Part shown: positions 1,054-58,775 of the stretch, piece by piece
How the letters are laid out: every line of letters starts with the position of its first letter
How positions within the stretch are numbered: position 1 is the stretch's first letter
Origin: Hymenobacter sp. APR13
Lineage (GTDB): Bacteria; Bacteroidota; Bacteroidia; Cytophagales; Hymenobacteraceae
Assembly (NCBI RefSeq): GCF_000737515.1
Contig: NZ_CP006587.1
Location: 3,095,001-3,159,000 of the forward strand
Direction of reading: 5' to 3'
Length of the DNA: 64,000 bases
The notes under the pieces: model-generated
The model's input: only the letters and a program-made list of their open reading frames with translations
Told to the model about the DNA's origin: nothing
Database searches by the model: none
Translations under genes and position numbers: made by a program

Positions 1054-1629
1054 ATGTTGCTTGCTTCCTACACTGACCATCCGCTCGAAGCGGGCCTCGA
1101 TGAAGCCGGGCGCGGCTGCCTGGCCGGCCCGGTATTCGCGGCGGCCGTGATTCTGCCGCCCGATTTCGCGCCCGCCTACCTCAACGATTCCAAGCAGCTA
1201 AGCGCCCGCCGCCGCACGGCGCTACGGGCCGAAATCTGTGAGCACGCCGTGGCCTGGGCCGTAGCCGAGGCCTCACCCGCCGAAATTGCTACCGTCAATA
1301 TTGCCCAGGCCAGCTACCTGGCCATGCACCGCGCTGTGGCGGCGCTCGGCGTGGTGCCCACCCACCTGGCCGTCGATGGCAACCGGTTCAAGCCGTACGC
1401 GGGCATCGAGCACACCTGCCTGATCAAGGGCGACACCCGCTTCCGGCACATTGCAGCGGCCTCCATCCTGGCCAAAACCTTCCGCGACGAGCGGATGGCC
1501 GAGCTGGCCGAGCTGTTTCCGGGCTACGGCTGGGAGCAGAATGCCGGCTACCCCACGCCTGCACACCGCGCCGCCATCCGCCAGCACGGCCCCACCGAGC
1601 ACCACCGCATGGGCTTTCGGTTGCTGTGA
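1054..1629 (+). CDS. rnhB: Ribonuclease HII
   Basis: This enzyme cleaves the RNA strand of RNA-DNA hybrids in the cytoplasm and starts ribonucleotide excision repair. The 191-residue length is typical. Acidic active-site residues are visible: D16-E17 in GLDEAGRG, D108 in AVDGN and D145 in AKTFRD. Also present are the DSKQL motif (45-49) and a C-terminal GYPTPAHRAAI segment with GPTEHHRMGF, typical of the family. The frame is open back to 898, but the ATG at 1054 directly follows a TACCTTTG promoter element and gives the normal N-terminus. The gene is alone on its strand, facing the response-regulator gene across a large palindrome. Confidence 0.95.
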   Translation: MLLASYTDHPLEAGLDEAGRGCLAGPVFAAAVILPPDFAPAYLNDSKQLSARRRTALRAEICEHAVAWAVAEASPAEIATVNIAQASYLAMHRAVAALGVVPTHLAVDGNRFKPYAGIEHTCLIKGDTRFRHIAAASILAKTFRDERMAELAELFPGYGWEQNAGYPTPAHRAAIRQHGPTEHHRMGFRLL

Positions 1630-1822
1630 GTGGGTGAGGAGGTGATGAGGTGAAGTGGTGATGGAGTGATGAGGACGAAATAAAAAGAACGTCATTTCGA
1701 GCGGAGCGAGGAATCTCGCCAGTGTAGTAACTGATTCTACCACACTGGCGAGATTCCTCGCTCCACTCGGAATGACGTTCTTACTTCTTCACTCCATCAC
1801 CTCATTCCTTCATCACCTCACT
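1630..1822. repeat. Composite palindrome: word-repeat arms around a REP-like core
   Basis: The left arm (about 1627-1675) has no C and repeats GTGATGAGG-like words. The right arm (about 1781-1836) has no G and repeats the complement CCTCATCAC. The core at 1685-1782 is a near-perfect inverted repeat carrying GAACGTCATTTCGAGCGG and its mirror image, around an AGTGTAG/CTACCACACT centre. It fills the junction between two convergent genes and reaches both stop codons. Confidence 0.85.
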
Positions 1823-2246
1823 ACTCTTTCATCTTCAGCAGATCCAGAAACAGGCTGAAGCCGTCGACGGTCGTGCCGCCTTCGCCGAAGCTGTCGAAGC
1901 TTAGGGGCTTGATGATGTAGCCGCTGACGGCCAGATTCTGGGCTTTCAGCCGCTCCGACTCCAGGTCGGAGGTGGTGGTGATGAACACGTTCAGGTTGAC
2001 AAACTCTGGGTCGGAGCGCAGCTGCTCCAGCAGTTCCAGGCCGTTCATGCGGGGCATGTTGATGTCGAGCATTACTACGCTGGGGTGCTCAATCTTGGTC
2101 TGGTCGGCTTCGCCACGCAGCATGTTCAGGGCTTCGCGGCCGTTGCGGGCAATGTGCAGTGGCACGGTAATGTTATTCTTCCGAAGCTCACGCTGCACAT
2201 TCATGATGTCCATTTGGTCGTCTTCGACTAGAAGGATACTAGGCAT
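1821..2246 (-). CDS. Response regulator, single CheY-like receiver domain (Rcp1 type)
   Basis: The 141-residue protein is a lone receiver domain with no output domain. The acidic pocket is D9-D10 in LVEDD, the phospho-acceptor is D61 in VMLDINMPRMNG, the switch threonines lie near 90-92, and the conserved lysine is K113 in IIKPLS. Receivers of this Rcp1-like type usually pass phosphoryl groups from a sensor kinase by protein contact instead of binding DNA. The ATG at 2246 is preferred over an upstream one at 2300 because the canonical receiver starts MPSILLVEDD. It lies 57 bases after the histidine kinase on the same strand, probably in one operon and as its partner. Confidence 0.9.
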   Translation of the reverse strand: MPSILLVEDDQMDIMNVQRELRKNNITVPLHIARNGREALNMLRGEADQTKIEHPSVVMLDINMPRMNGLELLEQLRSDPEFVNLNVFITTTSDLESERLKAQNLAVSGYIIKPLSFDSFGEGGTTVDGFSLFLDLLKMKE

Positions 2247-2303
2247 AGCGGGTGTTGGTTGGTAGGGGCGGAAAACGTAAAACGAAAGCCATATGGCCAA
2301 AGG

Positions 2304-3845
2304 CTATACGGCAATCAGGGGTTTGGGGGCTGAACTGCCGAGGCCGGGCCGGCTGGCTGACGGCTGGCGAGGCCAGGTGAAATAGAACGTGGCACCCTGT
2401 CCTTCGGCCGACTCGATGCGGATGGTGCCGCCCTGCCGCTCCACAATTTTCTTCACAATGGCTAGTCCCACGCCTGTGCTTTCCAGCGTGTCGCGCTCGG
2501 TCAGGGTCTGGAAAATGACGAAAATCCGCTCGTGGTATTCGGGCGCAATGCCGGGACCATTGTCTGCCACGGAGAAGGTGAAGAAGCTTTTTTCTTCGGT
2601 GCAGCCGATGCGCACGACGCCGGCTTCGGGGTGCGGGTGGTATTTGGCGGCGTTGCTGATGAGGTTGGTGAACACCTGCTGCAGCTGCACCCGGTTGGTG
2701 ACCAGAGTGGGCAAATAAAACGGCAACTCCACCTCAAACCCATCTGGCAACTCCAGCGAGTCGATGATTTCGCGCAGCAACTGCCGCACAAACACGGGCT
2801 CGTCAGCCTGGGCGGTGCGGCCCACCCGCGCCAGATCCAGGATGCCCGTGATAAGGTGCTCCATGCGCCGCACCCGTGTGCGCATCAGCAGCAAAAATTC
2901 TTGAATGTGGGGCGGCGTGTCCTGGCCCAGGTCTTCTTCAATCCAGCGCGAGGCACTCTCGATGCCTCGCAACGGCGCTTTCAGGTCGTGCGACACCACG
3001 TAGGCAAACTGGTCGAGCTCCTGATTGCGGCGCTCCAGTTGTGTGATGTTGCCGTTGATGGTAGCCGCCATCTGATTCAGCGACACCGACAAAGCGCTGA
3101 GCTCGTCGCCGGCCGTATCGGTGAGCTGCGTGTGGTACTCGCCGGCCGCAATCTGCGACGACAGCGACACCATGGTCTGGATGCGCCGCCCGATGAGGCG
3201 CGTGAGGTACAGGGCCCCGGCCAGCCCCAGCGCAATAGCCAGCAGCGTAGTGCCCACCGAAATCAGGCGGGTTTCGCGGATGCTCTCCTGCAGTTTGATG
3301 CCCTGCTTTTCGCGCAGCAGTAGCTCCTGATGGGCAAAGGCGGCAAACAGCACCCGAATCTGGTCGGTGAGGCGCTTGCCGGCCAGCCCTTCGGCCTGAG
3401 GGCGGTGGAGCATGCCCTGCAGGCCAGCTTGGTCGGGCAGGCGGCGGCGGGCTTCGCGCTTTTCCTGAATGAGGCTGTGCGAATACACCAGCCACTCGCG
3501 GAAAATATGGCGGGCCCGCAGAATGCGGGCATGCTGAGCCGGGTTGCCGTCAAGGTCGGTCAGCAGCTGCTCGAAGTGCGTAATCAGGTACCGCTCGCCT
3601 TCGTGGTAGGGCTCCAGGGTTTCTTCCTTGCCAATCAGCAGAAAGCCCCGAAAGCCGTTTTCCATGTCCACGATGCTGCGCAGCAGGGTAGAGGCCTCCG
3701 AGGAAGTGCGCTGCGAGAGCTGCACGCGCCGGGCGTTGCGCAGCACCTTACGCGAGAGCTGGTAGTTGACGAATACCACCCCCACAAACAGCAGCAGAAT
3801 AACCAGAAAACCGGTGAAGAGCTTGGTGGAGAGCTTGAGCTTCAT
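2304..3845 (-). CDS. Membrane sensor histidine kinase with CHASE3 domain
   Basis: 513 residues. TM helix 1 is at about 9-28, followed by an extracytoplasmic region of about 160 residues with the CHASE3-like pattern (DMENGFRGFLLIG at 60-72). TM helix 2 is at about 195-217, then HAMP (about 215-270), the HisKA box with H287 in VVSHDLKAPLRG, an N box NLISNAAKY (394-402), DNGPGI (428-433) and GVGLAIV (458-464). The kinase half resembles phytochrome-type kinases that work with Rcp1-like receivers, which fits the receiver gene next to it. An ATG at 3845 gives a clean N-terminal TM start, although the frame is open to 4034. The stimulus is unknown. Confidence 0.92.
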   Translation of the reverse strand: MKLKLSTKLFTGFLVILLLFVGVVFVNYQLSRKVLRNARRVQLSQRTSSEASTLLRSIVDMENGFRGFLLIGKEETLEPYHEGERYLITHFEQLLTDLDGNPAQHARILRARHIFREWLVYSHSLIQEKREARRRLPDQAGLQGMLHRPQAEGLAGKRLTDQIRVLFAAFAHQELLLREKQGIKLQESIRETRLISVGTTLLAIALGLAGALYLTRLIGRRIQTMVSLSSQIAAGEYHTQLTDTAGDELSALSVSLNQMAATINGNITQLERRNQELDQFAYVVSHDLKAPLRGIESASRWIEEDLGQDTPPHIQEFLLLMRTRVRRMEHLITGILDLARVGRTAQADEPVFVRQLLREIIDSLELPDGFEVELPFYLPTLVTNRVQLQQVFTNLISNAAKYHPHPEAGVVRIGCTEEKSFFTFSVADNGPGIAPEYHERIFVIFQTLTERDTLESTGVGLAIVKKIVERQGGTIRIESAEGQGATFYFTWPRQPSASRPGLGSSAPKPLIAV

Positions 3846-3989
3846 GAGCAACGAAAAAAAGACGGCAGCCGCAAATCTGCTGTCGGGTACGCAGGCGCCC
3901 GGCCAGAGTTGGCGGCCGGCGCGGGCCAGGCGCTGCCGCCATGCCCGCCCGGCGAAGATACCCGATACCGACTGCCGCGCGGAAATGGC

Positions 3990-3997
3990 TAATTTCG
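3990..3997 (+). promoter_or_regulatory. Possible -7 element of gcvT
   Basis: TAATTTCG matches TAnnTTTG except for one base and lies 49 bases before the gcvT start. A weak but suitably placed candidate. Confidence 0.35.
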
Positions 3998-4046
3998 CCC
4001 CGCCGCCGGGCGGCGCCCTCACCTTCCCACCCACTTCTATTTACTG

Positions 4047-5153
4047 ATGAGCGAAAATCTCAAAACCGTAGTCCTGAATGACGTGCACCAGCAGCTGGGT
4101 GCCAAGATGGTGCCCTTTGCCGGCTACAACATGCCCGTGCGCTACTCCTCCGACCTCGACGAGCACCACACCGTGCGCCGGGCGGTGGGCATCTTCGACG
4201 TGTCGCACATGGGCGAGTTCCGGGTGCGCGGCCCGCAGGCCCTCGACCTGATTCAGCGCGTAACCAGCAACGACGCCAGCAAGCTCACCGACGGCAAGGC
4301 CCAATACTCCTGCCTACCCAACGCCGACGGCGGCATCGTGGACGATTTGCTGGTGTACAAGCTGGCCGACGAAGACTACATGCTGGTGGTGAATGCCTCC
4401 AACATCGACAAAGACTGGAACTGGATCAGTAAGCACAATACCCAGGGCGCCGACCTGGAAAACGTGTCGGACCAGATGAGCCTGTTTGCGGTGCAGGGCC
4501 CCAAAACCAGCCAGGCGCTACAGTCCCTCACCGACGTTGACCTGAGCACCATTCCGTACTACTCGTTCGTGCAGGGCACATTTGCCGGTGTTGACGACGT
4601 GATTATCTCGGCCACGGGCTACACCGGCGCGGGCGGCTTCGAGCTGTACGTGCCCAACGAGCACGCCAAAGCCGTGTGGGACAAGGTAATGGAAGCCGGT
4701 CAGCCCTACGGCCTGAAGCCCATCGGCCTCGGCGCCCGCGACACGCTGCGCCTGGAAATGGGCTACTGCCTCTATGGCAACGACATCGACGACACCACTT
4801 CGCCGCTGGAAGCCGGCCTAGGCTGGGTGACCAAGTTCACCAAGGACTTCACCAACGCCGAAAGCCTGAAGCAGCAGAAAGAAGCGGGCGTAGCACGCAA
4901 GCTGGTGGGCTTCCTGATGGACGGCCCCGGCATCCCGCGCGGCCACTACGAGCTGGTAAACGAAGCCGGCGAGAAAATCGGGGACGTGACCAGCGGCACC
5001 CAGTCGCCGAGCTTGAGCAAGGGCATTGGCCTGGGTTACGTGCAAACCGAGCTCAGCAAGCCCGGCAGCAAGGTGTTCGTGCAAATCCGGGGCAAAAACC
5101 AGCCAGCCACGGTGGTGAAGCTGCCCTTCGTGCCCGGCACGGAAGAAGCGTAA
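4047..5153 (+). CDS. gcvT: Aminomethyltransferase (glycine cleavage T protein)
   Basis: GcvT transfers the methylene group from the aminomethyl-lipoyl H protein to tetrahydrofolate, releasing ammonia, in the cytoplasmic glycine cleavage system. At 368 residues it has standard length. Family signatures are visible: [11 protein letters not shown] near the N-terminus, [22 protein letters not shown] with the folate-site aspartate, [18 protein letters not shown], and the C-terminal [12 protein letters not shown] with GYV. No other glycine-cleavage gene (gcvH, gcvP) is in the window, so the system is dispersed here, as is common in Bacteroidota. The start is [12 protein letters not shown]. Confidence 0.96.
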
Positions 5154-5170
5154 GCTGAATAGTAAATATC

Positions 5171-5274
5171 TGTCATCCTGAGGCGGCAGCCGAAGGAGCT
5201 TATTGCGTCAGGACGAGTAGTCCAGCTGTATTGCAGGCGCACTAAGGTCCTTCGGCTACCGCCTCAGGATGACA
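5171..5274. repeat. REP-like palindrome, family B
   Basis: The left arm starts TGTCATCCTGAGGCGGCAGC and runs on through CGAAGGAGCTTA. The right arm is its near-exact complement, TAAGGTCCTTCGGCTACCGC through CTCAGGATGACA. The centre is about 40 bases. It lies between gcvT and comB, which are codirectional. Confidence 0.85.
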
Positions 5275-5303
5275 GCTTTTTTGTAGCATTCCTGATTGAC
5301 CTT

Positions 5304-6017
5304 ATGCCCACGATTGATATCTGCTTCTCGCCGGAGCTGTTGCCGCTTTTCAACCTGCAGGGCCGCGTGGCGGTGGTGGTCGACGTGCTGCGCGCCACCT
5401 CTTCCATTGTGGCGGCGCTGGCGTCGGGCGTTACGCACCTGGTGCCGGTGAGTGAGCTGGCCGAATGCCGCGCGCTGGCCGCCGAGGGCTACCTCACCGC
5501 CGCCGAGCGCGACGGCCGCCAGGCCGAAGGCGTGGACCTCGGCAACTCGCCCTTCGGCTACCTCGATGGCGTGGTGCCGGTGCGCGGCCGCGCCGTGGCC
5601 ATCACCACTACCAATGGTACCCGTGCCCTGCACCTCGCCCAAACGGCCGATGCCGTCGTGGTGGGCGCGTTCCTGAACCTGCAGGCCGTGGCCGACTTCG
5701 TGCGCCAGCAGCAGAAAGATGTGGTAGTGGTCTGTGCCGGCTGGAAAGGCCTGTTCTGCCTCGAAGACACGCTCTTCGGCGGCGCCCTGGCCGCCCGCCT
5801 CGCCGACACCTTCGACACCACTGCCTCCGACGCCACCCTGGCCGCCCTCGACCTGTGGCAAGCCGCCGAAGCGGACGTAGCCGGCTACCTGCTCAAATCG
5901 TCGCACGTGCGCCGCCTCAACAGCCTGGAGCTGCACAAAGACATGGAATTCTGCGTGCGCCCCGACGTGTACAACCTCGTGCCGCTGTTTCGGGAGGGGA
6001 AGATTGAGGTGGTTTGA
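5304..6017 (+). CDS. comB: ComB-family 2-phosphosulfolactate phosphatase
   Basis: The 237-residue protein matches ComB, the Mg-dependent phosphatase that converts 2-phosphosulfolactate to sulfolactate. Motifs seen are VVDVLRATSSIVAALASG near residue 25, LGNSPFGY near 80, ITTTNGTRALH near 100, and CAGWKGLFCLEDTLFGG near 150. In methanogens this step leads to coenzyme M; many non-methanogens, including Bacteroidota, carry comB without the rest. No comA, comC or sulfonate gene is adjacent, so the substrate here is open; a sulfonolipid or sulfolactate role is only a guess. The last codons run into the C-free arm of the downstream palindrome. Confidence 0.88.
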   Translation: MPTIDICFSPELLPLFNLQGRVAVVVDVLRATSSIVAALASGVTHLVPVSELAECRALAAEGYLTAAERDGRQAEGVDLGNSPFGYLDGVVPVRGRAVAITTTNGTRALHLAQTADAVVVGAFLNLQAVADFVRQQQKDVVVVCAGWKGLFCLEDTLFGGALAARLADTFDTTASDATLAALDLWQAAEADVAGYLLKSSHVRRLNSLELHKDMEFCVRPDVYNLVPLFREGKIEVV

Positions 6018-6150
6018 GTGGTTTGAGGTGATGAAGTAATGAAGGGATGAAGTGATGAGGTGAATAGCAGAACGTCATTCCTCGCAAGCTCGGAATGACG
6101 TTCTGCTATTCACCTCATCACTTCATCACCCCATCACCTCAAACCACCCC
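6007..6150. repeat. Composite palindrome: word-repeat arms around a REP-like core
   Basis: From 6001 to about 6066 there is no C; from about 6107 to 6160 there is no G. The arms carry GATGAAGTGATGAGG and its complement, and the core (6067-6106) is GCAGAACGTCATTCC plus its mirror image. It sits between comB and the convergent MazG-like gene and overlaps the comB stop codon. Confidence 0.85.
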
Positions 6151-6155
6151 ATCCC

Positions 6156-6482
6156 TTAATTCAGCTTCTTATTATTGCGGTGGCGGTCGGCGTCGCGGAG
6201 GGTTTTCTTGGCTAGGTTGCGCTGCAGGGCGTCGGTGAGGTTGATGCCGGTCTGGTTGGCCAAGCAGATAACCACGAACAGCACGTCGGCCAGCTCATCG
6301 GCCAGCACCTTGTCCTTGTCGGATTCCTTGAACGACTGCTCGCCGTACTGCCGGGCAATGATGCGGGCCACTTCGCCCACTTCCTCGGTAAGCATGGCCA
6401 TGTTGGTCAGCTCGTTGAAATACCGGACGCCGGTGGTCTGAATCCAATGGTCGACGGTTTGCTGGGCTTCTTCGATGGTCAT
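6156..6482 (-). CDS. MazG-like nucleotide pyrophosphohydrolase, 108 aa
   Basis: Single-domain all-alpha NTP pyrophosphohydrolase of the MazG/dCTPase superfamily. Metal-binding acidic motifs are visible: E33-E34 and E37 in LTEEVGEVARI, and E63 with D66 in DELADVLF. These enzymes hydrolyse nucleoside triphosphates (often non-canonical or damaged) to monophosphate and pyrophosphate; the exact substrate cannot be read from sequence. The ATG at 6482 is followed immediately upstream by the 16-base tandem repeat, so that repeat forms the 5' leader of its transcript. It is codirectional with dtd, 269 bases upstream. Confidence 0.88.
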   Translation of the reverse strand: MTIEEAQQTVDHWIQTTGVRYFNELTNMAMLTEEVGEVARIIARQYGEQSFKESDKDKVLADELADVLFVVICLANQTGINLTDALQRNLAKKTLRDADRHRNNKKLN

Positions 6483-6486
6483 GGGG

Positions 6487-6550
6487 GAGTAACTGAGTAG
6501 TTGAGTAACTGAGTAGTTGAGTAACTGAGTAGTTGAGTAACTGAGTAGTT
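6487..6550. repeat. 16-base tandem repeat, four perfect copies
   Basis: The unit GAGTAACTGAGTAGTT occurs four times without change and then decays (to about 6596). The complementary words CTACTCAGTTACTCC occur at about 6731-6765, so the array is the left arm of a larger palindrome enclosing the family C repeat. Confidence 0.9.
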
Positions 6551-6610
6551 GAGTAACTGAGTAAAGAGTAGCCGAGTAGTTGGGTAAGGGAGTAACTGCT
6601 GTTACGCAGC

Positions 6611-6703
6611 GGCAGTAGCGCGAACTTTGTAGTTCGCGTCTCCGCGCCGTTCAAACGATTCCAGCGGCGCAGTAGCGCGAACTACAAAGTTCGCGCTACT
6701 GCC
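6611..6703. repeat. REP-like inverted repeat, family C
   Basis: GGCAGTAGCGCGAACTTTGT and following bases (6611-6638) are inverted at 6676-6703. The right copy is itself a perfect hairpin, GCAGTAGCGCGAACT-ACAA-AGTTCGCGCTACTGC (6670-6703). A diverged copy of the same element is at 13028-13073. Confidence 0.85.
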
Positions 6704-6751
6704 CTCAACGTTCTGCGCAAGCCGGAATAGCCTACTCAGTTACTCCCTTAC

Positions 6752-7204
6752 TCAGCTACTCTCAGGCGAGTCCAGCACGATGGTGACGGGGCCGTCGTTG
6801 AGCAACTCCACCTGCATGTCGGCCCCGAATTCGCCGGTGGGTACGGGCTGGCCCAGCAGCTGCTCCAGCTGTTGCACAAACTGCTCGTAGAGCGGAATGG
6901 CAATCGGCGGCGGGGCGGCGCCGGTGTAGCTGGGACGGTTGCCTTTGCGGGCATCAGCCAGCAGCGTAAACTGGCTCACCACCAGCACCTGCCCGTCCAC
7001 GTCCTGCACCGAGCGGTTCATCTTGCCTTCCTCATCGGAGAAGATGCGTAGCTGCGTGAGCTTGCGCGCCATCCAGTCGAGCGACGTAGCGGTGTCGGTG
7101 GGGGAGAAGCCGGCCAGCACCAGCAGGCCCGGCCCGATCTGGCCCGTAATGCGGCCTTCGACGGTAACGCTGGCGTGCCGGACGCGCTGAATAACGGTGC
7201 GCAT
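6752..7204 (-). CDS. dtd: D-aminoacyl-tRNA deacylase
   Basis: Dtd hydrolyses D-amino acids (and glycine misloaded on tRNA-Ala) from tRNA, protecting translation. The length of 150 residues is standard. The active-site motifs SQFTLLAD (77-84) and NDGPVT (136-141) and the N-terminus [15 protein letters not shown] are all present. The ATG at 7204 has a TATCTTTG promoter element 38 bases upstream, which is shared back-to-back with the divergent glycosyltransferase promoter. The last four residues (PESS) follow the usual family end and reach into the repeat-rich spacer. Confidence 0.95.
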
Positions 7205-7242
7205 AAGGTGGAGTGTGGGGTTGGTGGAGTGGTGGATTGGGG

Positions 7243-7250
7243 CAAAGATA
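7243..7250 (-). promoter_or_regulatory. -7 promoter element of dtd
   Basis: Minus-strand TATCTTTG, 38 bases before the dtd ATG; its mirror image serves the opposite gene 28 bases away. Confidence 0.6.
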
Positions 7251-7278
7251 GCGCTCCATGATCCGCCCGGGATGACTG

Positions 7279-7286
7279 TATCTTTG
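7279..7286 (+). promoter_or_regulatory. -7 promoter element of the glycosyltransferase gene
   Basis: TATCTTTG, 29 bases before the TTG start at 7316. This spacing supports the non-ATG start. Confidence 0.6.
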
Positions 7287-7315
7287 CCAACCCATCAACC
7301 CATCAACCCGCCATC

Positions 7316-8860: not shown

Positions 8861-8950
8861 TTATGATCTGGCCGGCGGCAGCCGCTGTTCAACTAACTGC
8901 CGGCCGCGCCTCTTCCACGATTCCACCAGCACAACGTCAACTGGCGACAA

Positions 8951-8980
8951 CCGGTCGGACGGCTAACACCGTCTGACCGG
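8951..8980 (+). other. Hairpin downstream of the glycosyltransferase gene
   Basis: CCGGTCGGACGG (8951-8962) and CCGTCTGACCGG (8969-8980) form a near-perfect 12-base stem with a 6-base loop and no T-run. It may stabilise the mRNA 3' end before the terminator that follows. Confidence 0.5.
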
Positions 8981-9004
8981 CATATCTGCTTTGAACCCAG
9001 CAAC

Positions 9005-9032
9005 AAAAAAGCAGCCCGAAGGCTGCTTTTTT
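9005..9032. terminator. Bidirectional intrinsic terminator
   Basis: AAAAAAGCAGCC-CGAA-GGCTGCTTTTTT, a 12-base stem with a tetraloop, between two convergent genes (the glycosyltransferase and the SGNH lipoprotein). Confidence 0.85.
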
Positions 9033-9058
9033 ACAAAAGGGAAGTACCAGCTGGCGGC

Positions 9059-10423: not shown

Positions 10424-10469
10424 TAAAGTCAGGCCTTAAATGAGAAGGGAAGCGGGCATGAGCCGCCGA

Positions 10470-11723: not shown

Positions 11724-11750
11724 GCAGACAGGGTTTCGGACAATAGGCCG

Positions 11751-11758
11751 CAAAGGTA
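11751..11758 (-). promoter_or_regulatory. -7 promoter element of the porin-SGNH operon
   Basis: Minus-strand TACCTTTG followed by GCGGC, 28 bases before the ATG at 11723, the same spacing as at the Nudix gene. Confidence 0.6.
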
Positions 11759-11895
11759 GCGTTCTGAGGTGATTAAGTGAGTAGGCCGCTAAGGGATTAC
11801 GCGGGAAATTCCACCGGCCGCTTCTGCGGTCTGCAGCGCCCCGGATACGCCCTGCCGCGCGGGCTTTTTCCAACGTTTCCCGCGCGTGCTCCGGG

Positions 11896-12942: not shown

Positions 12943-12972
12943 AAGCAGCAGAGAACAGTGAAACCAAAGTCC

Positions 12973-12980
12973 CAAAGGTA
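12973..12980 (-). promoter_or_regulatory. -7 promoter element of mltG
   Basis: Minus-strand TACCTTTG, 30 bases before the TTG at 12942. It excludes a start codon at 12975. Confidence 0.6.
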
Positions 12981-12983
12981 ACG

Positions 12984-16831: not shown

Positions 16832-18112
<1,281 letters not shown>

Positions 18113-18114
18113 AA

Positions 18115-18297
18115 CGCGGATTTTGTGGATTAAGCGGATTGGTCGGATTTCGGTGACGATTGACGGACCATTAAAAACAGAAGAGGCTTGCCACACGGCA
18201 AGCCTCTTCTGTTTTTATGTGCCCAGGGACAGTGAAACTGGCAACAAACGAATCGTCACCGAAATCCGACCAATCCGCTTAATCCACAAAATCCGCG
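18115..18297. repeat. 47-base perfect inverted repeat of the CGGATT type (family D)
   Basis: The left arm (18115-18161) begins CGCGGATTTTGTGGATTAAG and the right arm (18251-18297) is its exact complement over 47 bases. GGATT recurs four times in the arm (GCGGATT, GTGGATT, GCGGATT, TCGGATT). A terminator hairpin sits in the middle. It fills the junction between convergent aceA and rnd. Confidence 0.9.
18172..18217. terminator. Bidirectional intrinsic terminator between aceA and rnd
   Basis: TAAAAACAGAAGAGGCTTGC plus C pairs perfectly with its complement across a 4-base ACAC loop (21-base stem), with A and T runs at the outer ends for both directions. Confidence 0.9.
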
Positions 18298-18299
18298 AT

Positions 18300-19469
18300 T
18301 CAGAAAGCAGTGGCGATGCTCTGGTAGTCGAGGCCGTGGCGCTGGGTGGTTTCCTGCAGGATGGTTTTCTGCCAGGGGCGCAGCACCTGGTCGGCACCCA
18401 GCTCGATGATGTCGGCCACGAGGCGGTTGGACAGCACCAGGTTGGCCACGTAGCCATTGTGGTCAGTGGTGATGTGGTTTTTGAGCTGAAGCAGCAACTG
18501 CTCGCGGGCATCGGCGCGGTTGGCCTTCTCGCCGCTGAGGCGGCGGCGGAACGGGAAGCGGCGCTGTTCGCCCGTGGCGGCCGGCTCCGGTACGGCCACG
18601 AAATTGTCGGGCGAGAGGGCCGTGAGCTGCTCCAGATATGGGGTACGCTTCAGCTCAGGGTGCAGGCCGCGGGCGTTTTTCCAGTCGTTGAGGCTGCGGG
18701 GCGTGTCGCGCACCAGCTCCGGCAGCCGCTCGTTGGCAAACACCATGTAGGGCGGCCGGTCGATCTGGCGGGCTACCTGGTCGCGGAGCATGTACAGGTC
18801 GCGGAACAGGGGCATTTCCTGGGGCAGGATGCGGTATTTGCCGGCCACGCGCAGGTACGGGCGCTCGTCGCGGGTGTAGCGCACTTCTTCCAGGGCCGCG
18901 TTCTCCTCGTCGGCCCAATGCAGGCGGCCCAGGGCGGCCAGCTTGTCGCGAAGGCGGTCGGCCAGCTCGAACAGGTAGAGCACGTCGTTGGCGGCGTAGA
19001 GCTTCTGCGCTTCCGTGAGCGGACGCTTCAGCCAGTTGGACTTCTGCTCGCCCTTGTCCACTTCCAGCCCCAGCTCGGCCTGAATCAGGCGGCCCAGCGA
19101 GATATTGTTGTCCGACTCGGCTAGCAGGGTGTATTGCACGCTGGTATCGGTGATGTTGCGCACGTGCACGCCGTAGAGCTCATCGAGCAGCAGAATATCC
19201 GACTTGCAGGAGTGGAACACCTTTTCCACGGCCGGGTCGCGCAGAATGGCCCAGAGGGGCTCCAGGTCGTGGGCGGGGTTGGTGAGCGGCAGCGGGTCGA
19301 TGAGCAGCATAGCTTGGCCATCAAAAATCTGAATCAGCGCCAGATTGCGGCCATAGCGGTGGCGCATGTCGTCAAACTCCAGGTCGATGGCAATGCGGGG
19401 GGCCGTGCTGAGTGCCAGGGCGGCCTGCTGCACTTCTGCAGCGGTGGTAAGGTACTGAATGGCAGACAT
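18300..19469 (-). CDS. rnd: Ribonuclease D
   Basis: A 3'-5' exoribonuclease that trims tRNA and other stable RNA 3' ends. 389 residues. DEDD exonuclease motifs are visible: D and E in IAIDLEFDDM, VFHSCKSDILLL (exo II), and LYAANDVLYLFEL (exo III, with Y and D). An HRDC domain follows at about 200-285 (RDLYMLRDQVARQIDRPPYM region). The C-terminal part is shorter than in E. coli. The ATG at 19469 is chosen over a TTG at 19499 because MSAIQYLTT is a usual beginning. The gene is convergent with aceA. Confidence 0.93.
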   Translation of the reverse strand: MSAIQYLTTAAEVQQAALALSTAPRIAIDLEFDDMRHRYGRNLALIQIFDGQAMLLIDPLPLTNPAHDLEPLWAILRDPAVEKVFHSCKSDILLLDELYGVHVRNITDTSVQYTLLAESDNNISLGRLIQAELGLEVDKGEQKSNWLKRPLTEAQKLYAANDVLYLFELADRLRDKLAALGRLHWADEENAALEEVRYTRDERPYLRVAGKYRILPQEMPLFRDLYMLRDQVARQIDRPPYMVFANERLPELVRDTPRSLNDWKNARGLHPELKRTPYLEQLTALSPDNFVAVPEPAATGEQRRFPFRRRLSGEKANRADAREQLLLQLKNHITTDHNGYVANLVLSNRLVADIIELGADQVLRPWQKTILQETTQRHGLDYQSIATAF

Positions 19470-30092: not shown

Positions 30093-30096
30093 CAGC

Positions 30097-30140
30097 ACGG
30101 ATTTTTGCGGATTATCCGGATTTCACGGATTTCGTGGATG
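30097..30140. repeat. CGGATT-rich repeat fragment (family D)
   Basis: ACGGATTTTTGCGGATTATC followed by CGGATTTCACGGATTTCGTG: four spaced CGGATT words, like the arm of the 18115-18297 element, here without a mirrored partner. Confidence 0.65.
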
Positions 30141-30160
30141 GCGCGGGCGAATTTCGCTGC

Positions 30161-30214
30161 CGTAGAACAACAAAAAGGGCTTGCCAGATGGCAAGCCCTT
30201 TTTGTTGTTCTACG
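30161..30214. terminator. Bidirectional terminator with 25-base stem
   Basis: CGTAGAACAACAAAAAGGGC plus TTGCC pairs perfectly with its complement across an AGAT loop, between the convergent M14 peptidase and the small basic protein gene. Confidence 0.9.
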
Positions 30215-30264
30215 AATAAGTCAGACCATCCGGGAAACCCGGTTGGTCCGGCTGATACCGTGAT

Positions 30265-42189: not shown

Positions 42190-42284
42190 GTCTTTATAGA
42201 GTTGTTAGTTGCTGGTTGCTGGTTGTTAGTCACTGTGCAGGCACAAGACCGTTAACTGACAACTGACAACTAAACACTGACAAC
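42190..42284. repeat. Word-repeat palindrome inside the ribosomal-protein operon
   Basis: The left arm repeats GTTGTTAGTTGCTGGTTGCTGG and the right arm repeats its complement as AACTGACAACTGACAACTAA. The arms pair imperfectly over about 30 bases. It separates rpsR and rplI; on the mRNA the A/C-rich arm stands before the rplI start. Confidence 0.75.
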
Positions 42285-47809: not shown

Positions 47810-47812
47810 ATC

Positions 47813-47911
47813 AGTAGTTGGGGGCTTGGGAGTTTGGGGTCTTGGTTTTACCAGATACCACTGCCGCAAAAAGCTGAGCCCCTAAGTTCCCAAGACCCAA
47901 AATTCTAAAAC
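47813..47911. repeat. Word-repeat palindrome between actB and actC
   Basis: The left arm repeats TTGGGGGCTTGGGAGTTTGG-type words; the right arm carries GCCCCTAAGTTCCCAAGACC. The arms are complementary over about 25-30 bases around an unrelated centre. The G-poor arm stands directly before the actC ATG. Confidence 0.75.
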
Positions 47912-47912
47912 T

Positions 47913-50636: not shown

Positions 50637-50642
50637 TCCACT

Positions 50643-51962: not shown

Positions 51963-51975
51963 TCAGACATGAGTG

Positions 51976-52017
51976 CCGGCAGGGGAGAGGCAAATTCCTT
52001 TTGCTTCTCTCCTTGCC
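51976..52017 (+). other. Intercistronic hairpin between actF and coxB
   Basis: GGCAGGGGAGAGGCAAA (51978-51994) and TTTGCTTCTCTCCTTGCC (about 52000-52017) form a stem of about 16-18 bases with small imperfections and no T-run. It lies after the actF stop (51962), 33 bases before the coxB ATG. Confidence 0.65.
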
Positions 52018-52049
52018 AGCCTCGCAAATCTCACCTCTTTCCTTACCCA

Positions 52050-53111: not shown

Positions 53112-53139
53112 TTCAACGCAGTTAATTTGTACGCTTTTT

Positions 53140-54993
53140 ATGGCTGCTAATCTTCCCACTCAAGTGCAGGGGGGCATCGGGGTAACCGAGCCAGGCATCT
53201 TGCACGATGAGCACCTGCACGACGATCATCATCACGATCAGCACTGGCTGTTCAAGTACGTGTTCAGCACGGACCACAAGGTGATTGCCAAGCAGTTTCT
53301 GATTACGGGTATCTTCTGGGCTATCCTGGGTGGTACTCTCTCCAGCTTGTTCCGTCTGCAGCTCGGCTGGCCCGAGTCGACGATGGAGTGGCTGACGCCT
53401 GTGTTGGGCAAATGGATTGAAGCTGGCAAGCTGAATCCGGAGTTCTATCTGGCCCTTGTAACGATGCACGGCACCATCATGGTGTTCTTCGTGCTGACTG
53501 CTGGCCTGTCGGGTACATTCTCCAACTTCCTAATTCCGCTGCAGGTTGGTGCCCGCGACATGGCTTCGGGCTTTATGAACATGCTTTCGTACTGGTTCTT
53601 CTTTGTATCCGGTATCATCATGTTTACCTCGATGTTCCTCGAAACCGGTCCTGCTTCTGCTGGCTGGACAATCTATCCGCCGCTGAGCGCCCTGCCCCAG
53701 GCTATTCCTGGCTCCGGCATGGGTATGACGATGTGGCTGGTGTCGATGGCGCTGTTCATCGTGTCGCAGCTGCTGGGTGGTGTTAACTACATCACTACAG
53801 TTATTAACCTGCGTACCCGCGGCATGAGCATGAGCAAGCTGCCGCTCACCATCTGGTCGTTCTTCTTGACGGCTATCCTGGGCCTGTTGTCGTTCCCGGT
53901 ACTGTTCTCGGCGGCCCTGCTGCTAATCTTCGACCGTTCGTTCGGCACGTCGTTCTTCCTGTCGGATATTTACATTGCCGGTCAGGCTCTGAATAACACG
54001 GGTGGTTCGCCGGTACTGTTCCAGCACTTGTTCTGGTTCCTGGGTCACCCCGAGGTGTACATCGTAATCATGCCTGCTATGGGTATGGTGTCGGAGATCC
54101 TCGCCACCAACGCTCGTAAACCGATCTTCGGCTACCGCGCCATGATTGGCTCGCTGCTGGGTATCTCGTTGCTGTCGTTCGTCGTGTGGGCTCACCATAT
54201 GTTCGTAACGGGCATGAACCCCTTCCTCGGATCGGTCTTCATGTTCCTGACGCTGATCATCGCCGTACCATCGGCCGTGAAAACCTTCAACTGGCTGGCT
54301 ACGCTGTGGCGCGGTAACATCCGCTTCACCACCGCCATGTTGTTCTCGATTGGTTTCGTGTCGCTGTTCATCTCGGGTGGTCTGACGGGTATCATCCTCG
54401 GTAACGCCGCGCTGGACATCCAGATGCATAACACCTACTTCGTGGTAGCTCACTTCCACTTGGTAATGGGTAGCTCGGCGTTCTTCGGCCTGTTTGCCGG
54501 TGTGTATCACTGGTTCCCCAAAATGTTTGGCCGCATGATGGACGAGAAGCTGGGCTACATCCACTTCTGGTTGACTTTCGTGGGTGTATATCTGGTGTTC
54601 CTGCCGATGCACTACGTAGGTATCGCCGGTTTCCCTCGCCGCTACTACGCTTGGACGGGCTTCGATTCGTTCAGCCAGTTTGCTGACCTGAACAAGTTCA
54701 TTTCGGTGGCCGCTATTCTGGCATTCTTCGCTCAGTTCGTGTTCATCTTCAACTTCTTCTACAGCATCTTCCGCGGCCGTCGTGCCAGCGAAAACCCTTG
54801 GCGTTCGACTACGCTGGAGTGGACCACGCCTGTCAACCCTGGCCACGGCAACTGGCCCGGCGAGATTCCGGCTGTGTATCGTTGGCCCTATGACTATAGC
54901 AAGCCAGGTGCTGAAGACGACTTCATCCCGCAGAACGTACCGTATTCGAAGACCCAGTCCTCGAACCTGCCGTACGAGAGCGAAATGGAATAG
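53140..54993 (+). CDS. coxA: Cytochrome c oxidase subunit I
   Basis: 617 residues with twelve or more TM helices. It carries heme a, heme a3 and CuB. Ligand motifs are FWFLGHPEVYIVIMPAMG (CuB histidine with cross-linked tyrosine), WAHHMFVTGMNP (CuB histidines) and VVAHFHLVMGSS (both heme ligands). Near the N-terminus is a His-rich segment DEHLHDDHHHDQHW. The C-terminal region after residue about 545 is soluble. It is the catalytic subunit of the oxidase supplied by ACIII. Confidence 0.97.
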   Translation: MAANLPTQVQGGIGVTEPGILHDEHLHDDHHHDQHWLFKYVFSTDHKVIAKQFLITGIFWAILGGTLSSLFRLQLGWPESTMEWLTPVLGKWIEAGKLNPEFYLALVTMHGTIMVFFVLTAGLSGTFSNFLIPLQVGARDMASGFMNMLSYWFFFVSGIIMFTSMFLETGPASAGWTIYPPLSALPQAIPGSGMGMTMWLVSMALFIVSQLLGGVNYITTVINLRTRGMSMSKLPLTIWSFFLTAILGLLSFPVLFSAALLLIFDRSFGTSFFLSDIYIAGQALNNTGGSPVLFQHLFWFLGHPEVYIVIMPAMGMVSEILATNARKPIFGYRAMIGSLLGISLLSFVVWAHHMFVTGMNPFLGSVFMFLTLIIAVPSAVKTFNWLATLWRGNIRFTTAMLFSIGFVSLFISGGLTGIILGNAALDIQMHNTYFVVAHFHLVMGSSAFFGLFAGVYHWFPKMFGRMMDEKLGYIHFWLTFVGVYLVFLPMHYVGIAGFPRRYYAWTGFDSFSQFADLNKFISVAAILAFFAQFVFIFNFFYSIFRGRRASENPWRSTTLEWTTPVNPGHGNWPGEIPAVYRWPYDYSKPGAEDDFIPQNVPYSKTQSSNLPYESEME

Positions 54994-55015
54994 TCACCAT
55001 TTGACAATCTTCCCG

Positions 55016-55054
55016 AAACGGGCCGCTGTATTTACGGCGGCCCGTTTTGTTTTA
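55016..55054 (+). terminator. Intrinsic terminator after coxA
   Basis: AAACGGGCCG (55016-55025) pairs with CGGCCCGTTT (55038-55047), followed by TGTTTT. Confidence 0.8.
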
Positions 55055-55169
55055 CGGCAAACCAAGCCTGTTGCATTGCTGTTTTACTGATGGTCCGGGT
55101 GCCGCCAGTACTGGTAGCTACTCCCTTTTTCTGACTGATGGCACAACGAGATGTTGGGCCCCTTTTTCT

Positions 55170-56261
55170 ATGAATCAACCTGCTTTTGTGAGGCGGTTTC
55201 GCTTCTTCGGGATTCTGACGGTGGTGGCAGTATATCTGCTGATTCTGGTCGGTGGTATCGTCCGGAGTACGGGCTCCGGTATGGGCTGCCCCGACTGGCC
55301 CAAGTGCTTTGGAACCTGGGTGCCACCCACGGCGGTAGGCCAGTTGCCAGTCAACTACAAGGAAATTTATACGGAGCAGCGGGTAGCCAAAAACCAGCGC
55401 ATTGCCAAGACGCTGGATAAGTTGGGATTCAAGCAGGTGGCCGCTCAAATTTTTGACCACCCCACGCAATACATCGAAACCGACTTCAACGCCACCAAAA
55501 CCTGGATTGAGTACCTAAACCGGCTGCTGGGGGCCTTAATTGGCGTTTTCATTTTCCTGACGGTGCTGCTGGCCTTACCGTATCTGCGCCGTGACCCGGT
55601 GGTGTTTGGGCTGGCCTTCCTTTCGCTGCTGCTGACTGGCTTCCAGGGCTGGCTGGGCTCGTTGGTGGTGTCTACTAACCTGCTGCCTGAAATGGTGACG
55701 GTGCACATGGCCGTCGCGCTGCTGATTGTGGCGCTGCTGATTTATGCTGTTGACCGCTCACAGCGGGTAGGGCAGGACAGCCAGGATGTTGAACCATTCT
55801 GGACGCCGTCAGCGGGCCTTAGCCTGTGGCTGTGGGTGATTACGCTGGCCACCTTTGGCCAGATTATTCTGGGCACCCAGGTGCGGGAGCAGATAGACGT
55901 AGTAGCCGCGGCCGCCGACTATGGCAGCCGCGCCAACTGGGTGGAGCAGCTGGGCCTGACGTTTAAGGTACACCGCTCGTTTTCGCTGCTGCTGCTGCTG
56001 CTGAACCTGTACGTAGCCTTCCGCCTGTACCAGACTCGCTCCCAGCGCCTGCAGCGCCTGGCCAACGTAGTGATTGTGCTGCTGGGCCTGGAAATAGCGG
56101 CTGGTGTCACGCTGGCCTACTTCGCGCTGCCGGCCGCCGTGCAACCGGTGCACCTGACGCTGGCCACCGTGCTTTTTGGAGCACAGTTTCTGACGATTAT
56201 CCGCTACCGCCGCCAGACGAAAACACAGGGGCAGGCCGCTATTCCGCGCGTTGTTGCGTAA
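55170..56261 (+). CDS. ctaA: Heme A synthase (COX15/CtaA)
   Basis: Oxidises the methyl group of heme O to the formyl of heme A. 363 residues, eight TM helices in two related halves. The opening GGIVRSTGSGMGCPDWPKCF is the family signature with its conserved cysteines and glycines; conserved histidines include VTVHMAVALLIV, VHRSFSLLLLL and QPVHLTLATVLF. The ATG at 55170 (MNQPAFVRRF) fits; the frame is open to 55047. A terminator lies upstream, so ctaA likely has its own promoter. ctaB follows after 52 bases. Confidence 0.94.
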   Translation: MNQPAFVRRFRFFGILTVVAVYLLILVGGIVRSTGSGMGCPDWPKCFGTWVPPTAVGQLPVNYKEIYTEQRVAKNQRIAKTLDKLGFKQVAAQIFDHPTQYIETDFNATKTWIEYLNRLLGALIGVFIFLTVLLALPYLRRDPVVFGLAFLSLLLTGFQGWLGSLVVSTNLLPEMVTVHMAVALLIVALLIYAVDRSQRVGQDSQDVEPFWTPSAGLSLWLWVITLATFGQIILGTQVREQIDVVAAAADYGSRANWVEQLGLTFKVHRSFSLLLLLLNLYVAFRLYQTRSQRLQRLANVVIVLLGLEIAAGVTLAYFALPAAVQPVHLTLATVLFGAQFLTIIRYRRQTKTQGQAAIPRVVA

Positions 56262-56313
56262 CTTTGCGGCCCGGTTTGGAGTCCTTCCGCCGCCCGTGTT
56301 GTTTTAACTTCTG

Positions 56314-57177
56314 ATGATCAAAGCCAGGGCGTATTTTCAACTGCTTAAGTTTCGGCTGGCCCTGACGGTCGCCTTCTCCAGTGCCATAGGCTTTTTGCTG
56401 GGGGCTCATGCCTTCGATTGGGGGCGGGCACTGCTGGTGATGCTAGGAGGTCTGGCTATCACTGGTTCGGCCAATACCATCAACCAGATCTACGAAAAAG
56501 ACCTCGACAAGCTGATGAAGCGCACGGCCAACCGGCCGCTGCCCCTCGGGGTTCTGTCGGTGGCGGAGGCTTGGGTGTTCACCGTCGTGCTGGGCGCATT
56601 TGGGTTGGGGCTGCTGGCCTACTGCTTCAATCCGCTGGCGGCGGCGCTGTCCTTGATTTCGCTGATCCTGTACGGCTTCATTTACACGCCGCTCAAGCAG
56701 CTCTCCCCGATCTGTGTGTTTGTGGGCGCCATTCCCGGCGGCCTGCCGCCGTTTATCGGGTGGGTGGCCGCCACCAACGCCATTACCGGCGCCGCCAGCA
56801 TTGGCGGCTGGGTGCTGTTCGGCATTCAGTTTATGTGGCAATTTCCGCACTTCTGGGCTATTGCCTGGGTGCTCGATGAAGACTATCGGGCTGCGGGCTT
56901 TAAGATGCTGCCGTCGCCGGGCCGAAAAGACCTGCGTACGGCCTTCCAGATCATGACCTACACGCTGCTGCTGATTCCTATGAGCCTGCTGCCGCTGCAG
57001 TTTGGCATTAGCGGCAAAGTATCGGCGCTGGTAGCGGTGGTGTGCGGGGTGCTGTTTCTGATGCAGACCTTCTACCTGATGCGCACCTGCTCCAAAAAAG
57101 CGGCCATGAGCATCATGTTCGGCTCTTTTCTGTATCTGCCCATCGTGCAGATAGCCCTTGTTCTCGACAAACTCTAG
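56314..57177 (+). CDS. ctaB: Protoheme IX farnesyltransferase (heme O synthase)
   Basis: Transfers a farnesyl group to heme b, giving heme O for CtaA. 287 residues, about nine TM helices. The UbiA-type motif is NTINQIYEKDLDKLMKRTAN with the following RPLPLGVLS; the second acidic loop is WVLDEDYRAAGFKML. Placed with ctaA in a heme A module within the oxidase block. Confidence 0.95.
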   Translation: MIKARAYFQLLKFRLALTVAFSSAIGFLLGAHAFDWGRALLVMLGGLAITGSANTINQIYEKDLDKLMKRTANRPLPLGVLSVAEAWVFTVVLGAFGLGLLAYCFNPLAAALSLISLILYGFIYTPLKQLSPICVFVGAIPGGLPPFIGWVAATNAITGAASIGGWVLFGIQFMWQFPHFWAIAWVLDEDYRAAGFKMLPSPGRKDLRTAFQIMTYTLLLIPMSLLPLQFGISGKVSALVAVVCGVLFLMQTFYLMRTCSKKAAMSIMFGSFLYLPIVQIALVLDKL

Positions 57178-57298
57178 TAAAGCGTACCGCTTGGTTGACT
57201 CTTTTGCGCAGTTAATTGTTAAAGCTCCGGAGGTAGTGAAATGCCTGACATACGCTGAAACCACTGCCGCCGAAAGAGAGTAACAAACCCCATACTTC

Positions 57299-57886
57299 AT
57301 GCAAACCACCGAATCCTTAGAAACCAAAGAGCCCGGCTCCGGGCTGCACCCGCTGCGGCTGCTGCTGATTCTAATGATCATCAGCATCATCATGATGTTC
57401 GCGGCCTTCACCAGCGGCTTCATCGTGCGCCGCGAAGAAGGCAACTGGCGCGAATTTGATCTGCCCATCAGCCTGCTCTACAACACCATTGTGATTGTGC
57501 TGAGCAGCGTTACCATGCAGTGGGCCTACGCCTCGGCCAAGCACGATGAGCTGGGCCGCGCCAAGCTGGCCATGGGCCTGACCGTGCTGCTGGGCTTCGC
57601 CTTTCTGGTGGGCCAGTGGTTCTCATGGGGCGATTTGGTGGCTGGCCGCACCTATTTTGGTGGGGTAGATGCCAACCCTTCCGGCTCGTTTGTGTATGTA
57701 CTGATGGGCGTCCATGGATTTCACCTCATCACCGGAGTGATTTTTCTGGTCAAGACCTACCTGAAAACCCTTCGCTATCAGGTGCATTCGCGGCAGATGA
57801 TGCCCATCGCCAACTGCACCATCTATTGGCACTTCCTGGGCGGGCTTTGGTTGTACCTGTATTTGTTCCTACTTTTGAACCACTAG
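57299..57886 (+). CDS. Cytochrome c oxidase subunit III-like protein (short, 195 aa)
   Basis: Five TM helices with the subunit III pattern LMGVHGFHLITGVIFLVKTY and the C-terminal CTIYWHFLGGLWLYLYLFLL. In the canonical subunit the final motif is WHFVDxVW; here the aspartate is replaced by GG. It precedes the full-length subunit III gene by 21 bases, so two subunit III homologues occur in series. They may form one oxidase together, or this one may act in assembly. Confidence 0.85.
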   Translation: MQTTESLETKEPGSGLHPLRLLLILMIISIIMMFAAFTSGFIVRREEGNWREFDLPISLLYNTIVIVLSSVTMQWAYASAKHDELGRAKLAMGLTVLLGFAFLVGQWFSWGDLVAGRTYFGGVDANPSGSFVYVLMGVHGFHLITGVIFLVKTYLKTLRYQVHSRQMMPIANCTIYWHFLGGLWLYLYLFLLLNH

Positions 57887-57907
57887 TTTCGTCTTACCCC
57901 GCACTGT

Positions 57908-58684
57908 ATGTCCACGATTTCCACGACGCAGCCCCTCTCTACTGCCAGCGCCGCCGACCGGCCGCGTAGCGGCAACTGGGACGGAGGCAACGAGCCCTTC
58001 AAGGCCAGCTACGGCAAGCTGATGATGTGGTTCTTCCTGCTGTCGGACGCCTTCACGTTCGCCGCGTTCCTGACCACCTACGGCCTGATCCGCCACCGCT
58101 ACCCGGCATTTGATGCCGCTGCTGGCAAGGCGTTCGAGTTTTCGACCGCCTACTGGCCGGTGCCGGACAAAGTATTCAATGGTTTCCCCGGCCTGCACGG
58201 CATGGACGTACCATTGGGCTTTGTGGCCCTGATGACGATGATTCTCATCTTCAGCTCCGTGACGATGGTACTGGCCGTAGAAGCCGGCCACCGCATGGAC
58301 AAGAAGGACGTGCAGAAGTGGCTGTTGTGGACTATCCTGTTCGGGGCCACGTTCCTGGGTTCGCAGGCTTGGGAGTGGAGCCACTTCATCCACGGCACCG
58401 ATGCTGGCACCAAGATGCTGGACGGTACCACGGTATATGGCGCCAACCTAGCCGTGAACCAGTACGGTCCGGTGCTGTTCGCTGACCTGTTCTTCTTCAT
58501 CACCGGTTTCCACGGGACGCACGTATTCTCGGGTGTCTGCTTGCTGGTGTGGTCGTTTATCGCCACCACCAACGGCACCTTTGAAAAGCGTGGCCACTAC
58601 GAAATGGTCGAGAAGATTGGCCTGTACTGGCACTTTGTAGATCTGGTGTGGGTGTTCGTTTTCACCTTCTTCTACCTCGTTTAA
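57908..58684 (+). CDS. Cytochrome c oxidase subunit III
   Basis: 258 residues, seven TM helices. GFHGTHVFSGVCLLVW and the C-terminal GLYWHFVDLVWVFVFTFFYL are canonical. Subunit III stabilises subunit I and its proton uptake. A loop of about 40 residues between helices (KAFEFSTAYWPVPDKVFNG) is longer than usual. A word-repeat palindrome follows the stop codon. Confidence 0.93.
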   Translation: MSTISTTQPLSTASAADRPRSGNWDGGNEPFKASYGKLMMWFFLLSDAFTFAAFLTTYGLIRHRYPAFDAAAGKAFEFSTAYWPVPDKVFNGFPGLHGMDVPLGFVALMTMILIFSSVTMVLAVEAGHRMDKKDVQKWLLWTILFGATFLGSQAWEWSHFIHGTDAGTKMLDGTTVYGANLAVNQYGPVLFADLFFFITGFHGTHVFSGVCLLVWSFIATTNGTFEKRGHYEMVEKIGLYWHFVDLVWVFVFTFFYLV

Positions 58685-58687
58685 ATT

Positions 58688-58775
58688 GTTTAATGGCTGA
58701 AGTGTTGAATGGTTGATCCTTCGACTGACTCGCAGAACCGTAAACCATTTAGCAATTCAACAATTTAACCATTCA
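58688..58775. repeat. Word-repeat palindrome between the subunit III and IV genes
   Basis: The left arm carries GTTTAATGGCTGAAGTGTTG and AATGGTTGA words; the right arm carries AACCATTTAGCAATTCAACA and TTTAACCATTC. The arms pair imperfectly over about 30 bases. The A/C-rich arm leads directly to the next ATG. Confidence 0.7.

Follow-up and report, generated by a model that had tools for sequence, protein, structure and literature searches.

The window analysed here is the whole stretch G000:C1:3095001-3159000, 64 kb of the 5.0-Mb genome of Hymenobacter sp. APR13 (G000); with gcvT as query the closest relatives are Hymenobacter species, at up to 98% in protein. Several of its gene spacers, among them those between psp and mazG, mazG and dtd, and rpsR and rplI and the one upstream of a COX4 gene, hold palindromes whose two arms are made of short repeated words [Table 1]. 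A sequence-only reading had listed eight such loci, each with a G/T-rich arm of words facing an A/C-rich arm of the complementary words, and all eight exist as described. Whether the arms pair beyond what their composition predicts, the lack of which it had named as a refutation, was examined by comparing the best stem score of each locus with those of 100 shuffles, in which either half was shuffled separately so that composition and polarity were kept. Seven of the eight loci scored above the largest shuffle; the spacer at 42190-42284 stayed within composition when taken alone and is backed by its orthologues, a palindrome being seen by eye at this position in 23 of 30 genomes and the first arm being richer in G than in C in all 20 that were measured. 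Absent from the earlier list were two similar loci, at 18107-18305 and 30093-30264, the words of which contain GGATT. The left arms without C and right arms without G ascribed to two of the loci were confirmed for the first and last 40 nt of those starting at 1627 and 6001, the latter of which extends across the psp stop codon.

Table 1 Word palindromes of the window. Positions are those of the window; each stem score is followed by the largest score among 100 half-wise shuffles.
Position	Strand	Words	Junction	Stem score	Largest shuffle	Arms and core
866..970	.	GAGTATTGAG-type		15	13	
1627..1836	.	TGATGAGG-type		46	17	arms ~1633-1672 and 1786-1819; between them GTCATTTCGAGCGG.. REP-like core, 1685-1782
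6001..6160	.	TGATGAAG-type	psp-mazG, convergent	40	24	arms 6011-6064 and 6101-6154; short core, GTCATTCC
6487..6765	.	GAGTAACTGAGTAGTT	mazG-dtd, codirectional	31	13	left array expanded; GTAGCGCGAAC REP-like core, 6611-6703
7206..7315	.	GGTGGAGT	divergent	15	13	pair CAAAGATA..TATCTTTG
18107..18305	.	GCGGATT	convergent	49	14	terminator-like core, 18172-18217
30093..30264	.	GCGGATT-type	convergent	26	11	terminator-like core, 30161-30214
42190..42284	.	GTTGTCA/GTTGCTG	entire rpsR-rplI spacer	12	18	
47813..47911	.	CTTGGGG-type	codirectional	15	11	
58688..58775	.	TTGAATGG	codirectional, upstream of COX4 gene	15	10	

Some of the cores enclosed by the word arms are REPs, terminators or a promoter-like pair; cores of the first and last of these types had been proposed earlier and both are present, the pair in the core at 7206-7315 being one that we take to be a promoter-like motif. 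By eye, REP-like cores starting with GTCAT or GTAGCG nest within the arms. The words of the mazG-dtd spacer occur in six genomes and its REP core in three of them (the window, G012 and L008), being absent from L001, L004 and L011; this distribution suggests that the core probably arrived later than the words. Searches of the window returned no Rfam match and no tRNA. Elsewhere in the genome, a RAYT-like Y1_Tnp gene (L094:1868-2705, about G000:C1 1061868-1062705) lies between two GTAGAGACGCAATATTTTGCGTCTC palindromes, members of the GTAGAGACGC family that recurs in many G000 spacers. A second Y1_Tnp gene (L257:1576-2318) is seemingly flanked by the inverted pair GGGGCGGCATATTGGTAGAAA / TTTCTACCAATATGCCGCCCC, as judged by eye, and neither GTAGAGACGC nor word palindromes lie alongside it in the stretch examined. 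At the psp-mazG junction, the spacers of five species (L012:11977-12441, L015:11936-12235, L031:11968-12337, L036:11992-12430 and L038:12065-12544) contain repeats with longer units, estimated by eye at about 15-21 nt, for example ones bearing GTGGATCG or GTGCAGCCG.

The order of the arms was next counted at gene junctions, the genes being taken from a simple codon-usage caller that makes edge distances and some starts approximate. A gapped stem finder returned 287 stems from the called junctions of 864 kb of G000 versus 6 after dinucleotide shuffling, and 246 versus 5 from 48 other Hymenobacter loci. Keeping only stems that had words in tandem and loops no shorter than 12 nt left 112 in 2.57 Mb of Hymenobacter DNA, 110 of them distinct, and removal of two REP-like ones yielded a set of 108 word palindromes. 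The first arm was richer in G than in C in 97 of these and poorer in 8, with 3 ties, so that the earlier statement that the G/T arm always comes first stands as a strong majority and not as a rule. The skew is chiefly one of G over C (0.24 per paired nucleotide), the excess of T over A being slight (63:39). In convergent junctions, G-first and C-first palindromes numbered 15 and 3, all three exceptions coming from L011 and from one word family. A held-out test for which the predictions were fixed beforehand, run on 40 new 20-kb stretches (several from genomes sampled elsewhere before), gave 26 word palindromes, 25 of them G-first and one C-first, the latter by eye hardly word-like. A/C-first palindromes, whose being as common as G/T-first ones had been named as the outcome that would speak against a fixed order, are thus a small minority in both sets. 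A crude count of base runs, the signal of which was weakened by a low-GC region where genes were poorly called, found G/T followed by A/C 58 times and the reverse 21 times, compared to 86 and 67 in five shuffles combined. Among other Bacteroidota, an automatic word filter applied to 50 loci retained 19 elements, of which 10 had G>C, 3 had G<C and 6 were tied, a noisy count that consists partly of AT-rich stems; eight loci with evident words, picked by eye in other genera, comprised seven with G>C and one tie (L179), and L077 additionally holds one element at -1. The polarity of the word palindromes is real but not absolute. Since a palindrome reads identically from both strands, a fixed C-poor-first order cannot stem from the direction of replication or transcription; it demands either an intrinsic step that is asymmetric from 5′ to 3′ or strict inheritance from founders.

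Word families were delineated by folding the arms at a period of 7 or 8 and clustering the resulting words, using 202 elements that comprised the junction palindromes, those of the rplI slot and of helix P12 of RNase P RNA (see below), and the hand-picked ones of other genera (9 elements at eight loci). A clear word was found in 174 of the 202, its period being 7 in 101 and 8 in 73. The words fell into 33 families, 29 G-first and 4 C-first (one of the four consisting of GC-rich sequence that barely qualifies as a word), or into 52 families, 47 and 5, with a stricter cut. Order is uniform within families: not one of the 20 families with at least three members combined both orders, and the C-first palindromes mostly had word families of their own, CATTTAAC and AAGCTGC, with most exceptions belonging to the CATTTAAC family alone (four junctions and three P12). 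Order being a family trait, families rather than elements are the fair count. The elements recur across loci and species. Some copies from separate loci can be aligned through the loop, with about 74-80% identity, indicating that at least part of the elements spread as whole units; 39 matches spanned the loop, and the best two among the 25 listed (94 and 85%) are orthologues and not copies from other loci. The earlier view that the loci do not form one dispersed sequence family thus holds in that there are some 33 word families, but has to be amended in that 20 of these have three or more members, some with copies alignable from arm to arm. Expansions confined to one arm were seen as well, with a 16-mer repeated five times on the left of the mazG-dtd palindrome and ACCTGTC repeated six times in a single arm of G060.

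Two positions offer aligned series of varied fillings, which renders the birth and turnover of spacers directly testable. The first is the rpsR-rplI spacer, where the 23 palindromes seen by eye comprise six word sets as we labelled them and the remaining 7 of the 30 genomes have a short, element-free spacer (21 nt long in each of five that were measured). A tree built from the coding DNA on either side, which covered 25 of the 30 genomes since five were lost to the search patterns, requires three changes each for the empty spacer and for the GTTGTCA and TATTGAG types. In this tree G012 groups with G000 and G084 (support 100/98), with flanks that are 96-97% identical; its spacer, in contrast, has 54-55% similarity to those of G000 and G084 but 81% to the spacer of G092, a genome whose flanks match at 83%. 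G012 thus carries a non-homologous spacer that is incongruent with the flanking genes, a switch between near relatives. The divergence starts at the stop codon on the rpsR side, the other boundary not being placeable, and fits a replacement by recombination from a putative donor outside the sample. The short spacer was not found by eye within the filled ones of the 30 genomes. Whether the two arms change together, a check suggested by the sequence-only reading, was followed by eye at one junction (47810-47912) in three genomes, where the arm changes were unmatched.

The second position is helix P12 of the RNase P RNA, a gene devoid of codons. The rnpB gene of the strain (L257:2358-2811, G000:C1:215857-216310) was recognized by a match to RF00010 and carries a word-palindrome insert in P12. 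Over 108 Hymenobacter genomes the length of this match is bimodal, with 57 long (448-497 nt) and 51 short (384-416 nt) genes, a split that rests on our reading of match lengths. From 41 rnpB genes chosen for their length (40 long and one short), P12 was obtained in 40, the pattern being absent in L274; among the 39 long ones scored, the first arm had G>C in 32 and G<C in 3, with 4 ties. The three exceptions carry CATTTAAC words and the four ties AGCT words. Words common to the rplI slot and P12 were not in excess within genomes (0.42 shared 7-mers in the same genome versus 0.64 between different genomes, in 12 genomes with both slots). The presence of such an insert in a catalytic RNA points to a cause at the DNA level. 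In line with this, the stems lack the G.U-over-A.C signature of an intrinsic terminator or conserved RNA hairpin: sense-strand G.T and A.C mismatches numbered 102 and 119 in word stems of codirectional junctions (P 0.28), 27 and 33 in held-out word stems and 49 and 66 in P12. Short-loop hairpins of codirectional junctions, which are probably mostly terminators, displayed 131 G.T versus 66 A.C mismatches (P 4e-6), and 53 versus 27 in the held-out set. The excess in these hairpins indicates that the mismatch test has power, although it may be weak for young arms, since P12, a known RNA helix, shows no G.U excess either.

The reading that we favor, at a probability of roughly 0.35, is that the word palindromes are spacer cassettes made and moved as DNA, in which two arrays of degenerate words, each word 7 or 8 nt long, face each other in inverted orientation around a variable core and would originate by slippage and fold-back. 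Arrays would lengthen by slippage; the C-poor strand would fold back and be copied into the complementary arm, which would place the A/C arm always second; and the finished unit would spread to other spacers and be exchanged between species as a block, its order retained. Slippage followed by templated inversion had been one of the two hypotheses of the sequence-only reading. It is compatible with the 7- and 8-nt units and the one-arm expansions. Fold-back copying may have given rise to the second arm and fixed the polarity; we keep it as the leading step, though an unproved one. The cassette reading draws on the polarity and its uniformity within families, the order seen in P12, the copies alignable through the loop, the switched spacer of G012 and the missing G.U excess; the lack of surplus word sharing between the rplI slot and P12 and a C-first heptamer palindrome on a cyanobacterial plasmid (see below) count against it. 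The C-poor arms of G-first palindromes pair with themselves, G.T allowed, slightly better than expected (6.90 versus a mean of 6.24 for shuffles, the largest of 20 shuffle means being 6.48; n=147). In contrast, the 19 exceptions do not fit fold-back in that their second arm is the better self-pairing one (6.89 versus 5.68), and first arms are only weakly richer in T than in A, though a primer relying on G.T wobble would favor G and T alike. Wobble fold-back as the cause thus found weak support.

Nearly as likely is that inheritance explains the order on its own, the palindromes descending from one or a few old dispersed families the words of which drift; as drift cannot swap arms, the order would have been set by the founders and no polar process would be necessary. 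The uniform order of all 20 larger families, the concentration of the exceptions in CATTTAAC and the alignment of copies across the loop are what such descent would leave behind. Shared 7-mers moreover link 99 of the 108 elements by single linkage, but low-complexity words may chain by chance. Against it, 29 of the 33 families agree in order, and the little-resembling words of other Bacteroidota agree as well at seven of the eight loci picked by eye. A less probable proposition is that a DNA process of Bacteroidota assembles 7- or 8-nt words into inverted arrays and always places the array of the C-poor strand first, whether in a spacer or within the gene of a structured RNA; if true, this polar synthesis, template-switching or telomerase-like, would create gene spacers de novo.

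More doubtful than either is a non-autonomous mobile element whose C-poor 5′ arm would be recognized by a single-strand transposase of the RAYT/HUH or another kind. G000 does possess a true RAYT-REP pair, namely the Y1_Tnp gene with GTAGAGACGC palindromes on both sides, REP-like cores are nested in the word arms, and at least some of the elements spread as whole units. However, the words vary from one family to the next (~33 in all) with no common fixed tag or consensus stem as REPs and REPINs have, tags being carried, by eye, by the cores. The two Y1_Tnp genes are the only ones in G000, and the stretches examined around them show no flanking word palindromes, the P12 of rnpB lying about 340 nt from one of them. 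Compared to a MITE, the arms are not constant, and the empty rplI spacer was not recovered by eye inside the filled ones.

Word palindromes adjoin genes closely: in 65 of 108 neither outer edge is more than 12 nt away from a called gene end, which in the first set held for 44 of 73 word arms versus 17 of 93 REP-like arms. At many junctions the cassette is the entire spacer. Of 38 tandem arrays that lack a partner arm, 35 obey the same side preference. Stop codons contain no C, and start codons contain G. A codon filter might hence tolerate C-poor words past stops, because they carry stops, while upstream of starts it would admit G-poor words, which lack ATG, GTG and TTG; in a spacer-filling palindrome both sides would impose the identical order. 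Read on the sense strand, arrays near stops had G>C over G<C at 77:8 and those near starts G<C over G>C at 76:4, and held-out arrays within 30 nt of a gene end complied in 14 of 14 cases on the stop side and 13 of 13 on the start side, whereas a further held-out prediction was underpowered, with 2 convergent and 11 codirectional stop-side arrays. Stop-side arrays of convergent junctions closed all three frames in 19 of 28 cases, with 10.1 expected from permuted words, and 48 of 85 stop-side arrays start within the gene. The rule was kept and broken by 143 and 7 arrays within 30 nt but by 10 and 5 beyond (Fisher P 0.0017), a comparison confounded by the make-up of the five broken far arrays (two arms of G-first palindromes, one arm of a C-first palindrome and two that are palindrome-free in the set); one held-out far array obeyed and one broke the rule (P 0.069). 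Against this filter, P12 displays the same order (32:3 and 4 ties) and the same excess of stop triplets (all three frames are closed in 15 of 32 arms, compared to an expected 6.1) where there are no codons, so that both traits belong to the words and selection on start and stop codons is largely ruled out as the sole cause. The TAACTGA-type arrays of low-GC Bacteroidota (L169, L178), moreover, read TCAGTTA past stops and are free of stops. We accordingly regard the filter as unlikely.

Least likely of all is the other hypothesis of the sequence-only reading, that selection favors an RNA hairpin beginning with its G/U arm. Of 106 word elements, 77 do lie in codirectional, perhaps co-transcribed junctions, and most abut gene ends on both sides, yet the stems show no sense-strand G.U excess and elements occur in divergent junctions too, so that upkeep as an RNA helix is not supported for the word palindromes.

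A literature search, thin in its coverage of subscription journals and hence a weak negative, retrieved no report on such repeats in Hymenobacter or on polar word palindromes. The nearest known form is that of the STRRs, degenerate tandem 7-nt words of heterocyst-forming cyanobacteria. The Hymenobacter elements share with them degenerate words of about 7 nt repeated in tandem in spacers and a presence in the RNase P RNA gene, the latter known for these cyanobacteria from Vioque 1997 (cited in PMC2858038). Unlike STRRs, they form spacer-filling palindromes of fixed order, with a period of 8 about as common as one of 7 (73 to 101). In 350 kb of an Anabaena plasmid, one clear heptamer palindrome was found (L185:45210-45430, NC_007410 295210-295430); its CAATTCG words are C-first, opposite to Hymenobacter, and a small annotated CDS overlaps with the second arm. 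The likeness to STRRs is one of form.

Oriented heptamer arrays at gene ends are also known from TAACTGA repeats, which, in the sections of MacGregor 2015 (PMC4679880) drawn on here, abut start codons in one orientation, with a reversed set after stops, occur in some Bacteroidetes too, are almost never inverted and are suggested to regulate translation. In contrast to that one word, Hymenobacter has many words and paired arms. Three tandem copies of TAACTGA are absent from G000 and present in 11 of 247 Bacteroidota genomes; because G equals C in this word, its order can be read from T over A only. In two low-GC Bacteroidota (L169, L178), TAACTGA-type arrays stand past stops in the TCAGTTA sense, matching MacGregor's reversed set. 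REP/BIME elements, described in the excerpt of PMC3733652 used here as small spacer palindromes with GTAG or CGTC tags that depend on RAYT transposases and flank their genes, resemble the present elements in being small spacer palindromes, with REP-like units as cores and one family flanking a RAYT gene; they differ in that neither a fixed tag nor a consensus is seen in the word arms, which also adjoin gene ends more often. Finally, the replacement of the rplI spacer, incongruent with the gene tree, is akin to intergenic region switching or horizontal regulatory transfer, in which, according to PMC5890482, closely related strains differ at a locus in that one spacer has given way to another that cannot be aligned with it; unlike the switching described there, nearly all long alleles at the rplI slot are polar word palindromes. 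We class the elements with the heptamer (STRR-like) spacer repeats, as a variant that is polar and palindromic and whose units spread and are exchanged as DNA.
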